Shown in pieces: positions 10,375 through 43,888 of a stretch of 64,000 nt of DNA. The stretch comes from Rhodococcus sp. KRD162 (lineage in GTDB: Bacteria; Actinomycetota; Actinomycetes; Mycobacteriales; Mycobacteriaceae): contig NZ_JABFAU010000016.1 in assembly GCF_017168335.1 (NCBI RefSeq), forward strand, positions 77,084 through 141,083. The letters are read 5' to 3'. Each line of letters opens with the position of its first letter. Position 1 is the stretch's first letter. Below the pieces are notes generated by a model. That model made no database searches and was not told where the DNA came from. It was given only the letters and a program-made list of their open reading frames with translations. Both the position numbers and the translations under genes were made by a program.

Positions 10375-10450
10375 CGGGCCTGACTGTTCACTATCGACGA
10401 TGCTGCGCGGTTGTTCGCTGATCGAGTGCGATGGTGAACACTCAGGTCCG
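10375..10450 (+). repeat. 76-bp TIR element, copy A
   Basis: Left arm 10375-10396 and right arm 10429-10450 are inverted repeats matching at 19 of 22 positions (inner part TGTTCACTATCG / CGATGGTGAACA). A 32-nt interior shares CGCGG and GATCG with the other copies. It lies between two convergent genes, and its right arm encodes the last codons and the TGA of the minus-strand tetR gene. Confidence 0.75.
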
Positions 10451-15148: not shown

Positions 15149-15556
15149 ATGACCACATGTCGTCAAGACGCGTGCCTCGATGTGTCGTCGACGATGACTG
15201 TTCAGGAACTCGCCCGAACGGTTGTCGATACCGCCGACGGCAATTTCGGTCGATGGGGCATCGAGTATCTGGGGCCCGATGGCACCCGCCTCTGGTTCGG
15301 GGTGCACCGTCGCAGGTTGGGGAGAAAGCGCGAGACGGTGATGCGATTCATTGTCACGGTCGACGCTGATTCTGCTGTCGCGCAAGCACGTTCGCAGATC
15401 GAACAGTTCGTCCGCGATCCCGCCTCGGGGTCGATCGTGCCTATCGGTCCGCGACAGCTGCGCGGGTGTGCGGCCTACCGTCTTTATCTGAGCGCACTGC
15501 GGGCGGCTGTACTGGAAGCAGATCCGGCCGCGCAGGTGACGATGAAGATCGACTGA
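15149..15556 (+). CDS. Hypothetical protein
   Basis: 135-aa protein of mixed alpha/beta prediction with no motif I recognise. It contains two early Cys and an aromatic patch around WGIEYLGPDGTRLWFGVHRRR. There is no signal peptide or membrane helix. Its stop codon is directly followed by copy B of the 76-bp repeat. A start at a later ATG cannot be excluded. Confidence 0.6.
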   Translation: MTTCRQDACLDVSSTMTVQELARTVVDTADGNFGRWGIEYLGPDGTRLWFGVHRRRLGRKRETVMRFIVTVDADSAVAQARSQIEQFVRDPASGSIVPIGPRQLRGCAAYRLYLSALRAAVLEADPAAQVTMKID

Positions 15557-15632
15557 AGAACCTCGGTGTTCACGATCGCAACCGGTTCGCGGTATTGCGC
15601 CGATCGGATTCGATAGTGAACAACCAGGTCCG
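15557..15632 (+). repeat. 76-bp TIR element, copy B
   Basis: Arms 15557-15578 and 15611-15632 (inner TGTTCACGATCG / CGATAGTGAACA) match at 17 of 22 positions. The 32-nt interior is nearly the same as in copy C from GCGGTATTGCGCCG onward. It starts at the base after the stop of the 135-aa gene and lies in the same orientation as copy C, on the other side of the AbiEi/DUF559 gene. Confidence 0.75.
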
Positions 15633-15637
15633 CCGAG

Positions 15638-15666
15638 CCTGTGGATAACGGCGAACTATCCACAGG
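15638..15666. promoter_or_regulatory. Hairpin with DnaA-box-like ends
   Basis: CCTGTGGATA (15638-15647) and TATCCACAGG (15657-15666) form a perfect 10-bp inverted repeat with a 9-nt loop just upstream of the ATG at 15675. TGTGGATAA (15640-15648) equals the consensus DnaA box in reverse. It may instead be a simple translational or transcriptional control hairpin. Confidence 0.45.
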
Positions 15667-15674
15667 TTTCGAGA

Positions 15675-16580
15675 ATGGCACTGGCGCAGCAGTTGTCGGT
15701 CGTTCACCGTATGTGCGTGGGGGTAACTACAGCGGTCGACCTGATGGCTCGGGGGATGAGCCGCAGCACCATCACTCGTCGAACTGCATCCGGGCACCTG
15801 ATTCGAGTACTGCCCGGGATCTATGCGACCGAGAAGCCGGACTATCTGGACTTGTGCACAGCGGTGACGCTGTGGAAGCCGAACGCAGTTCTCAGCCATC
15901 TGACCGCGGCATGGATATGGGGATTGCTCGCGGTCGAACCGGCTCGCGTCGCTGCGACGGTGACGCCGTCGACCCAGCGCAGTGCCCCGGACTGGGTGAA
16001 GATCCATCGACGACGCCTCCCCGCGTCGGATATGTGCCAGGGGCTTGCGGTGGTGACGTTGGCCCAGGTGTTCGTCGACGTCGCGGCGACGCTGACGGGT
16101 GAGGAACTGGAGCAGTTCTTCGATACGGCCATCGCCCGGCCCGAGTTGCGGCGTCGCATCGCGTCGAGCTGTGAGAAGTCCCGCGGGATGGCCGGCATGA
16201 AAGCAGTGCGCAGGCAACTGCGTCTGTGCTGCCTCGGGACTCGATCCGAACCCGAGCGAGTGGTGGCGAGGGCGATGTCTGCCAGGAACTTCTTCATGGA
16301 GATCAACGCGCGAGTGGGGCCCTACTTCGGAGATTTCGTGGACTATCGAGCGCGGGTGATCGTGGAGATAGACGGACGAGAGTTCCACATCTCCGGTCAG
16401 GCTTTCGACAACGATCGCCGACGCCAGAACAGGCTGGTCTTGGCGGGGTGGTTGGTGCTGCGCTACTCCGCAGTCCAGGCGATGGGTGATACGCGACGCG
16501 TGGTCGAGGAGATCATCGAGGTCGTCAGGCGTCGTCGACGTTCGATCGATGCAATCGGCCGGGCGCTGCCGCGGACGTGA
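15675..16580 (+). CDS. AbiEi-like HTH / DUF559 nuclease-fold protein
   Basis: 301-aa protein with two parts. Residues 15-60 resemble the AbiEi antitoxin-type winged helix (SRSTITRRTASGHLIRVLPGIY). The C-terminal part (about 215-285) has the DUF559/Vsr-like endonuclease pattern: an acidic VDYRARVIVEIDGREFH block followed by NDRRRQNRLVLAGWLVLRY. Such proteins are very common in actinobacteria, often as orphans, and their role is unproven. No toxin partner is present. The gene is bracketed by copies B and C of the 76-bp element in the same orientation, and its last residues (RT-stop) lie inside copy C. Confidence 0.75.
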   Translation: MALAQQLSVVHRMCVGVTTAVDLMARGMSRSTITRRTASGHLIRVLPGIYATEKPDYLDLCTAVTLWKPNAVLSHLTAAWIWGLLAVEPARVAATVTPSTQRSAPDWVKIHRRRLPASDMCQGLAVVTLAQVFVDVAATLTGEELEQFFDTAIARPELRRRIASSCEKSRGMAGMKAVRRQLRLCCLGTRSEPERVVARAMSARNFFMEINARVGPYFGDFVDYRARVIVEIDGREFHISGQAFDNDRRRQNRLVLAGWLVLRYSAVQAMGDTRRVVEEIIEVVRRRRRSIDAIGRALPRT

Positions 16581-16647
16581 GTGTTCACGATCGCGTCCGG
16601 GCCGCGGTATTGCGCCGATCGGATTCGATAATGAACAACCAGATGCG
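16572..16647 (+). repeat. 76-bp TIR element, copy C
   Basis: Arms 16572-16593 and 16626-16647 (inner TGTTCACGATCG / CGATAATGAACA) match at 15 of 22 positions around a 32-nt interior almost identical to copy B. The left arm supplies the last two codons (CGG ACG) and the TGA of the preceding AbiEi/DUF559 gene. Confidence 0.75.
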
Positions 16648-16651
16648 GCAC

Positions 16652-17024: not shown

Positions 17025-18185
17025 GTGGTTCACTGGTTCTTCCGAGTCGAGACACTAGGAAAGCTGCTCGAAACAGTGAACGGTCTTCGCCAGTGGTGGG
17101 CACTTCCAGTCGACTACGGATGGAACGTTGCGTACGCGCGATACCAGCGAGCCCTCGACATCACCAGAGTTCTCATCGGAGTCTGCTGCTGGCTGTACGG
17201 AATCGCCGCGGCGATCGCTCTGACGATTCCGGGTATCGGAGACAGCAACCTCGGACGCTGGACACTGTGGTTCACACTGGGTACGACAGTGCCGGTGGGT
17301 GTGGCCTGGTTCATCGGCGGTTGGCCGAGCTGGCGCATGTCGCTTGCCTTCGTGGTGTACGCCGACGTAGCGCTCGCCGCGGTAGTGCTCACTGTCGACA
17401 GCCCGTCCGCAGTTCTGCCCATGGCTGCCCTGTTCACCGTCGTAGGCAGCTACGTCGTGGGATTTCATGGCCCCAAACTCGTCACCGCACACCATGTGTT
17501 CGCGCTGGTCACCACGATTGCGCTGTACGTCTCGGCTATGGTGAGCGATCCCGCGCAGGGTCCACGGACCAACCTCTACCTCGTGATGCTGATCCTGGTG
17601 ATGCTCGCGGCTCCGCTGATCTGTCATTTCTTTCTCATGCTGCTTCGTCGTGACGCCACCGGTGCCTTCTACGATCCCCTCACCGGAATGCGAAATCGCC
17701 GGGGATTCGACGCGGCCATCGGTGCCCTCGAGTCCCGGCCGGGCTCCGAGCTGGCGGTGGTCGCTGTGGTGATCGACATCGACAACTTCAAATCGGTGAA
17801 CGACAGGTACGGCCATGAGCACGGAGACGCGGCCATTCGTCTGACGGCGAGCCGCATTCTCGAAGTCTTTCCGGCACCGGCGATCTCCGTTCGTCTCGGT
17901 GGCGAGGAGTTCGCGGTGATCTGCGCTGATGGCCTCGAAACGGTGATGCGACGATCCGAACTGCTGCGCACTCGCCTGTGCGCCAGATCCGACACGGCAC
18001 CACTGACCGCGTCCTTGGGTGTGGCCGAGGCGGTTGTGGTGACACGCGAGATCCATACCGGCGTCGACGAGGTGCTGGCCTACGCCGACCAGGCGATGTA
18101 TCAGGCGAAAGGGCTCGGCGGCGATCGCGTCGCACACTACGTGGACGATTCGCGGTCCGGCCGGGACGGCGACACACAACAGTAA
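17025..18185 (+). CDS. Membrane-bound GGDEF diguanylate cyclase
   Basis: 386-aa protein with about six membrane helices in the first 210 residues (an MHYT/MASE-like sensor of unknown type) and a C-terminal GGDEF domain. The active-site motif is intact as RLGGEEF, and the substrate-binding stretch DIDNFKSVNDRYGHEHGD is complete. It should make c-di-GMP at the inner membrane. I see no clear RxxD inhibitory site. GTG 17025 has AGGCGG 8 nt upstream. TTG 17019 is an alternative. A degenerate EAL-DICT protein is encoded 1.8 kb downstream. Confidence 0.85.
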   Translation: MVHWFFRVETLGKLLETVNGLRQWWALPVDYGWNVAYARYQRALDITRVLIGVCCWLYGIAAAIALTIPGIGDSNLGRWTLWFTLGTTVPVGVAWFIGGWPSWRMSLAFVVYADVALAAVVLTVDSPSAVLPMAALFTVVGSYVVGFHGPKLVTAHHVFALVTTIALYVSAMVSDPAQGPRTNLYLVMLILVMLAAPLICHFFLMLLRRDATGAFYDPLTGMRNRRGFDAAIGALESRPGSELAVVAVVIDIDNFKSVNDRYGHEHGDAAIRLTASRILEVFPAPAISVRLGGEEFAVICADGLETVMRRSELLRTRLCARSDTAPLTASLGVAEAVVVTREIHTGVDEVLAYADQAMYQAKGLGGDRVAHYVDDSRSGRDGDTQQ

Positions 18186-18225
18186 CGGCGTCGATCGGTT
18201 CCGAATCGGAACCGATCGACGCCGT
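18185..18225. terminator. Bidirectional terminator
   Basis: A 19-bp perfect stem (18185-18203 with 18207-18225) closes on a 3-nt loop between the convergent GGDEF gene and the secreted-protein gene at 18246. It overlaps the last base of the GGDEF stop codon. Confidence 0.8.
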
Positions 18226-43812: not shown

Positions 43813-43888
43813 CGCACCCCACGGTTCACTACCGTCGCTGATCTGGGGGAATCCGCGACCGGGCGTCGATAATGAACAACCAGGTCCG
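43813..43888 (-). repeat. 76-bp TIR element, copy D (inverted)
   Basis: Arms 43813-43834 and 43867-43888 (inner GGTTCACTACCG / CGATAATGAACA) match at 14 of 22 positions. The interior is again 32 nt and aligns with copies B and C only when reversed (shared CGCGG and GATC at the same offsets), so it is in the opposite orientation. It follows ndh directly. Confidence 0.65.

Follow-up and report, generated by a model that had tools for sequence, protein, structure and literature searches.

RAYT genes are single-copy and vertically inherited. In the RAYT/REP systems, as described in PMC2817692, a palindromic element stands on each side of the gene and coevolves with the enzyme, further copies are scattered over the genome, in some cases clustering near the gene, and a genome usually holds more than 100 REPs. 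These REPs are characterized in PMC3733652 as sequences of 20-40 bp tagged by GTAG or CGTC. An arrangement of a gene between two palindrome-holding ends is also reported for IS200/IS605 elements (PMC6006769). EDxHD homing endonucleases, according to PMC3943268, dimerise on targets of nearly 60 bp, and the antitoxin AbiEi is described as binding two 23-bp inverted repeats placed 3 bp apart (PMC7319586).

The window analysed here is a stretch of 64,000 nucleotides (G000:C19:77084-141083) from a genome of 5.9 Mb. It holds a gene for a nuclease-like protein placed between two palindromic elements, B and C (Table 1), and most of the relatives examined lie beside palindromes of their own, which have changed along with the protein. 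This suggests a system of enzyme and repeat that has so far gone unrecognised and that resembles REP/RAYT without being related to it. A preliminary description had regarded B and C as same-orientation repeats with nearly identical interiors around the gene, and this proved correct, as B (15566-15632) has the same orientation as C (16581-16647), is 90% identical to it over 67 nt and lies 1015 bp from it, with 28 consecutive bases shared by both (CGCGGTATTGCGCCGATCGGATTCGATA). The flanking palindrome is roughly 75 bases long; the extent of about 78 nt listed for B and C was inferred from the stretch common to unrelated copies, that is, the core and about 12 nt per side. The core of B stops 53 nt before the ATG used, although the true start may lie further inside, and element C starts directly after the stop codon, the left edge of its inferred extent overlapping the end of the gene. 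A 62-nt query taken from B and searched with up to 3 mismatches matched only B itself in the window (chance expectation 0). The inverted-arm pattern GTTCACNATCG..CGATNRTGAAC matched three places in the window, namely A, B and C (mean of 0 in 100 shuffles), and four places genome-wide, where the backward control gave 0.

Table 1. Features of the locus and related element copies, in window coordinates
Feature	Position	Strand	Remarks
Element B, upstream copy	15556..15633	+	Core 15568-15621; dyad centre about 15594/15595
Nuclease-like gene, 301 aa	15675..16580	+	AbiEi fold fused to a C-terminal Vsr-like/DUF559 domain (predicted)
Element C, downstream copy	16571..16648	+	Core 16583-16636; orientation as B
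Element A, dispersed solo copy	10386..10439		Between two likely genes that converge on it
Degenerate solo copy	43824..43877 (G000:C19:120907-120960)		Gap between two likely genes

Pfam searches with the encoded protein identified DUF559 (PF04480, 1.6e-10), AbiEi_4 (2.3e-7) and MTES_1575, and no other families; proteins built in this way match the AbiEi models of a defence database and a domain of unknown function. Named relatives of the gene come mainly from Rhodococcus and Rhodococcoides strains. In an AlphaFold2 model (mean pLDDT 84, from an alignment of 19 sequences), residues 12-186 resemble the AbiEi antitoxin 6y8q, which comprises a winged helix and a nucleotidyltransferase-like domain (Z 14.5). 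Residues from about 188 to 289 resemble the putative endonuclease 3hrl (Z 12.3), the catalytic domain of the EDxHD homing endonuclease I-Bth0305I (3r3p, Z 12.0) and Vsr (1cw0, Z 9.3). E194, D220, H238, D247 and R250 are kept in all 82 homologues found to be flanked by a palindrome pair (see below), and E231 and D233 in 81 of them; judged from the model, these acidic, His and Arg residues are those expected of a Vsr-like active site. The same residues are kept in nearly all unpaired homologues too, and no tendency for catalytic residues to be lost along with the pair was found, since the unpaired clusters retain them.

The association between gene and palindrome was examined at 129 homologous places (E up to 1e-10), obtained by searching 37 genomes of the genus together with 12 from elsewhere in the order. 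Nine partial places were dropped, leaving 120, and two more, which owed their high scores only to flank slices running off contig ends, were omitted, so that 118 were compared. A homologue was regarded as paired at a flank score above 33, the level below which 99% of 1070 mismatched pairs of flanks fall (their maximum being 50). Matching upstream and downstream elements were found at 82 of the 118 homologues, 8 of these scoring 40 or less, as against none of 50 other genes of the window, and one or more members are paired in 26 of the 34 protein clusters defined at 65% identity. The palindromes accompany the protein family as a whole, not just this gene. Arranged by identity to the window protein, the paired fraction is 6/6 at 80% or more, 15/18 at 57-64%, 17/32 at 49-54%, 11/24 at 39-45% and 33/38 at 28-34%. 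The 36 homologues without a matching pair belong mainly to two clusters (0/14 and 1/11 paired), in which 21 of 25 members carry a palindrome no more than about 160 nt downstream of the gene; most of these palindromes are specific to the cluster. A palindrome score of at least 13 was reached downstream of 10 and upstream of 5 of 124 control genes, which include genes of the same syntenic loci from which the gene itself was not removed; with 62 of the 118 homologues scoring at this level downstream, the palindrome score alone was rejected as a weak marker.

Among 32 named loci tested, out of 80 fetched, 13 are paired, including 3/3 of the Williamsia type and 3 of 15 from Nocardia. The orientation of the copies is not fixed, and inverted matches score higher in Williamsia and in some clusters; because of this variation, recombination between direct repeats is not a general rule. 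Williamsia-type loci carry inverted upstream and downstream copies, one or two per side, whose number varies among close relatives, with 1+2, 2+2 and 2+1 palindromes around the gene among L275, L276 and L278; one such upstream/downstream pair is identical at 54 of 55 positions. The record of L276 is titled Kitasatospora arboriphila, while its protein is 97% and its surrounding DNA more than 90% identical to Williamsia muralis, and it is probably a mislabelled or mixed assembly. At another locus, L105 (G035:C7), several palindromes stand in tandem to either side of the gene, of a type found in none of the other 36 genomes.

Protein and palindrome diverge together, with a Mantel r of 0.706 over 82 loci and none of 2000 permutations as high. 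Median element similarity is 91 for proteins at least 80% identical, 41 at 65-80%, 21 at 50-65%, 17 at 35-50% and 16 below that, to be read against a shuffled baseline with a median of 15 and a 95% level of 20. The internal structure of the element was analysed in 13 paired clusters at 39% identity or more, of which 10 gave a representative with an even centre; the representatives were chosen by palindrome score and not by centre, and the clusters share ancestry, hence no p-value is attached. Seven of these 10 match a conserved centre, CGGGA|TCCCG, within 2 mismatches, and a second box, CAC, is located 22-24 nt outwards, reaching 1.89 bits at position 24; its neighbouring bases vary between clusters. 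The arms differ across subfamilies. In distant homologues (28-34%) the element is shorter, and 9 of 13 representatives are odd-centred, for example CCGCGCT-G-AGCGCGG.

A hairpin or RNA function was considered for such a dyad and rejected. No compensatory pairing was found in the spacer within subfamilies, and the folding z of single-stranded DNA is -4.2 for A, -2.2 for B, -0.4 for C and -0.2 for the copy at 43824, C thus folding no better than shuffles; for these two reasons a hairpin is unsupported. Searches against Rfam gave no family near the gathering score, the two weak matches both lying outside the elements. The dyad symmetry is more in keeping with double-stranded DNA bound by a dimer than with a hairpin.

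The flanking copies at this locus evolve in concert. Over the inner 40 columns in six orthologues, the two copies within a genome differ by 0.142, as against 0.282 among upstream and 0.337 among downstream orthologues, and the true pairing of upstream with downstream copies is the best of 720 possible pairings (3/720 when all columns are used). Concerted evolution could also be obtained by ordinary recombination, without a nuclease. The inverted copies of the Williamsia type imply that exchange needs no direct orientation, which argues for conversion rather than simple deletion. A left/right polarity of homogenisation, noticed by eye at six loci, was discarded (Wilcoxon p 0.59 over 36 loci and 0.75 over 31).

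The gene lies in a block consisting of alkB, a GDSL lipase gene, in some cases a 135-aa ORF, the gene itself, a short ORF and a GGDEF gene, which was recognized whole or in part in 12 species including that of the window (G000). It had been proposed that the gene could be a cassette and that empty sites with a single element might be found in relatives; both are supported by this block. The bracketed gene occupies the syntenic locus in six species (G000, G008, G009, G011, G024 and G027), one element is present and the gene absent in three (well kept in G016, decayed in G015 and G022), and in three others (G023, G014 and G033) the gene is absent with no clear element at the locus. On a tree of five neighbouring genes from 13 species, G016 adjoins the gene-bearing G024 (support 83/98), and G015, G022 and G014 together adjoin the gene-bearing G008 (100/100). 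Presence of the gene needs at least 4 changes on this tree, 3 of which are forced by well-supported branches, and it is not clustered among the 13 species, 277 of 500 label shuffles being as low. Because the single-element species adjoin gene-bearing ones, loss of the gene leaving one element is the simplest and, from these sequence comparisons, the likely explanation for such sites, although they may instead be solo sites that preceded a copying-in of the gene.

Two other features of this neighbourhood were observed. The 135-aa ORF upstream of B (window 15149-15556) has no Pfam match; full-length matches to it occur in G015, G022 and G023 and in none of the other five gene-bearing species, and remnants of its end are seen in G011 and G024. 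Right after the GGDEF gene, at window 18185-18225, there is a perfect 20-bp inverted repeat with a 1-nt gap, possibly the terminator of that gene.

Copies of the element were also searched for elsewhere in the 37 genomes of the genus, at fixed spacing and with up to 3 mismatches. This gave 60 sites in 14 genomes (8 flanking and 52 others), 1 to 8 per genome, and 0 in the other 23, with no site for the backward control in any of the 37. Thirteen of the 14 copy-bearing genomes are species of the neighbouring-gene tree, the exception being G035, and 8 of the 14 are without a gene of the window protein's subfamily. Besides the flanking pair, there are 3 to 6 copies in genomes with the gene and 1 to 6 in seven clade genomes without it; this weak difference (p 0.07) did not sustain the idea that the gene raises copy number. 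Three of the six dispersed copies in G000 (G000:C19 87469, 120907 and 206668) are no more than about 115 kb away from the gene; the contig they share makes up less than 6% of the genome, and copies may spread locally. Element A is missing from the same gap in G025, G009 and G024; the gap in G025 keeps a short stretch like the right end of element A, which may be its remnant. No target-site duplication could be defined for element A in this gap, which is too diverged, and nine further loci are uninformative on its insertion, their left-hand gene being a different one. For a distant subfamily with shorter odd-centred palindromes (28-32% identity; L100, L104, L117, L187, L190 and L197), 33 sites including the flanking ones were found in 15 of the 37 genomes, with 0 control matches. 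Copies belonging to a third subfamily were found in 1 of the 37 genomes, the gene-bearing one, two of them beside the gene and one elsewhere.

On further analysis of the dispersed copies, a second site, at an orthologous dispersed element, was recognized at which sequence lies between elements. In G014 (L329 3090-3143) it has the simple order flank, element, flank. With the same outer flanks, G008:C68 (L324 2471-11476) carries two same-orientation elements 8.9 kb apart. In G016:C44 (L323 3381-5887) two same-orientation elements, located within a 287-bp direct repeat, are 2.45 kb apart and enclose genes named by eye as a TetR-like regulator and a serine-hydrolase-like gene. G000:C56 (L328 3501-3554) has one element beside about 0.5 kb of other sequence. 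The breakpoints fall at or near the elements. Other genes flanked by two copies, which the preliminary description had proposed to look for, are thus seen between two same-orientation copies in two species, and these may be gains or losses.

Of the described systems, RAYT/REP is the closest parallel. Here too the gene is flanked by two palindromes, at the window locus as well as in the paired homologues, and the elements co-diverge with the enzyme. The enzyme, however, is an AbiEi-fold/Vsr-like nuclease without Pfam PF01797, the elements are two-box dyads of about 50-80 bp whereas REPs are described as tagged sequences of 20-40 bp, and a genome holds 1 to 8 sites compared with the more than 100 usually reported for REPs. 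The flanking elements are inverted in RAYT/REP, while they are direct at this locus and in many subfamilies, and inverted in some. By its enzyme, copy number and orientation, this locus is not a member of that class. I-Bth0305I is similar in the predicted fold of the C-terminal domain and in the occurrence of gene-less sites at the same locus, and its dimer-bound target of nearly 60 bp may be likened to the palindrome, on which binding would be analogous. It differs in that the DNA-binding part here has the AbiEi fold, the gene is outside any intron, and the element stands on both sides of the gene and is not destroyed by it; cleavage and homing are putative here. The AbiEi antitoxins of AbiE and Rv2827c share the N-terminal fold and the inverted repeats adjoining the gene, but not the nuclease fusion or the additional downstream element, and, unlike AbiE type IV systems, the locus has no adjacent AbiEii nucleotidyltransferase toxin among the four neighbouring ORFs. 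IS200/IS605 elements and MITEs are comparable in having a gene between two palindromic ends; however, no Y1 enzyme is present here and no recent jumps were seen.

In our assessment, with a confidence only somewhat better than even, the product of the gene is a nuclease that recognises specific sites, and the palindromes serve it as recognition elements of its own. Counting against this are the homologues without a matching pair, the weaker association in Nocardia and in two Rhodococcus clusters, the variable orientation of the copies, the eight copy-bearing genomes that lack the gene, and the unclustered presence of the gene on the tree. A rather unlikely alternative is that the palindromes are the operator and the transcription end of an autoregulated gene, whose AbiEi part would bind the upstream copy and so repress the gene's promoter, the downstream copy insulating or terminating while the nuclease acts elsewhere. 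AbiEi and Rv2827c are described as binding inverted repeats upstream of their own gene and repressing it (PMC7319586), the upstream copy is commonly located about 50-180 nt before the gene start, and the two boxes look like a site for a dimer on double-stranded DNA, not like a hairpin. An operator-and-terminator role would explain part of the pattern; nevertheless, palindromes occur downstream no less often than upstream (62/118 vs 38/118), the dispersed copies sit at other genes, and neither the concerted change of the interior nor the common centre is expected of an operator. It is improbable, in turn, that element, gene and element hop as one self-moving transposable unit, with solo elements as MITE-like or excision remnants. 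The gene does lie between two like ends, solo and empty sites exist, 134 of the 230 homologue pairs at 65-80% identity share neither flank, and G035 holds two members of one 65% cluster. Set against this, among the 160 pairs that are at least 80% identical, 159 have one or both flanks in common (both flanks in 144, one in 15, none in 1); close homologues thus stay at one locus, so the gene is mainly inherited vertically. Apart from the pair in G035, no genome has two members of any 65% cluster in the 120 rows, the orientation of the ends varies between subfamilies, and no target-site duplication was defined, the insertion edges in the element A gap not being clean.

The link to phage defence and toxin control that had been drawn from the AbiEi-type domain is unsupported, and a phage-defence or type IV toxin-antitoxin module is very unlikely, despite the AbiEi fold and the match to PADLOC AbiEi models (best 2.6e-18). 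The four neighbouring ORFs comprise two without a Pfam match, one GGDEF and one GDSL lipase protein, with no partner toxin recognised and no PADLOC match among them; the GGDEF gene lies downstream in 12/12 block species and the GDSL lipase gene upstream in 7/12. At E 1e-5, homologues were present in 0 of 50,697 phage records and in 2 of 72,556 plasmid records, both distant. The protein may still be a lone nuclease attacking invading DNA. There is hardly any likelihood, finally, that ordinary dispersed palindromes came to lie on both sides of the gene by chance, losses and conversion being the work of homologous recombination. Such recombination between direct repeats can make solo sites and the second cargo site, yet passive repeats leave unexplained why different palindromes flank one protein family (82/118 vs 0/50) and why protein and palindrome co-diverge; this family-wide association speaks strongly against them.

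For the site-recognising nuclease, a mechanism may be outlined by analogy. The predicted dimer would bind the palindrome, its AbiEi-type winged helices lying on the subfamily-specific outer arms, and the Vsr-like domain would act at the conserved centre by a nick or a break. We infer this placement, dimer on the arms and cut at the centre, because AbiEi binds inverted repeats and EDxHD enzymes dimerise on targets of nearly 60 bp. Repair of the break from another copy would homogenise the flanking copies and might now and then delete or insert the sequence between two copies. More tentatively, and with rather less than even confidence, we suggest that these proteins form an actinobacterial class of palindrome-directed nucleases, in which an AbiEi reader is joined to a Vsr cutter, a private dyad of about 50-80 bp is cut at its centre, and the breaks copy palindromes and at times the gene or cargo. 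A literature search covering titles and abstract openings, with bioRxiv preprints and most subscription journals outside its scope, returned no description of this nuclease-palindrome pairing.

With a cognate palindrome at most of the homologues examined, a concrete substrate for tests is at hand, and with a paired member in 26 of 34 clusters, many natural protein-target pairs are available for learning how a long dyad is read by a two-domain nuclease. If the proposed class is real, a lifestyle like that of RAYT/REP would have arisen a second time, independently and around another nuclease, and the scattered palindromes would serve as programmed sites of recombination. Rhodococcus genomes contain dispersed palindromes that are otherwise unexplained, as well as insert sites bracketed by elements, and both could be traced to such a system.
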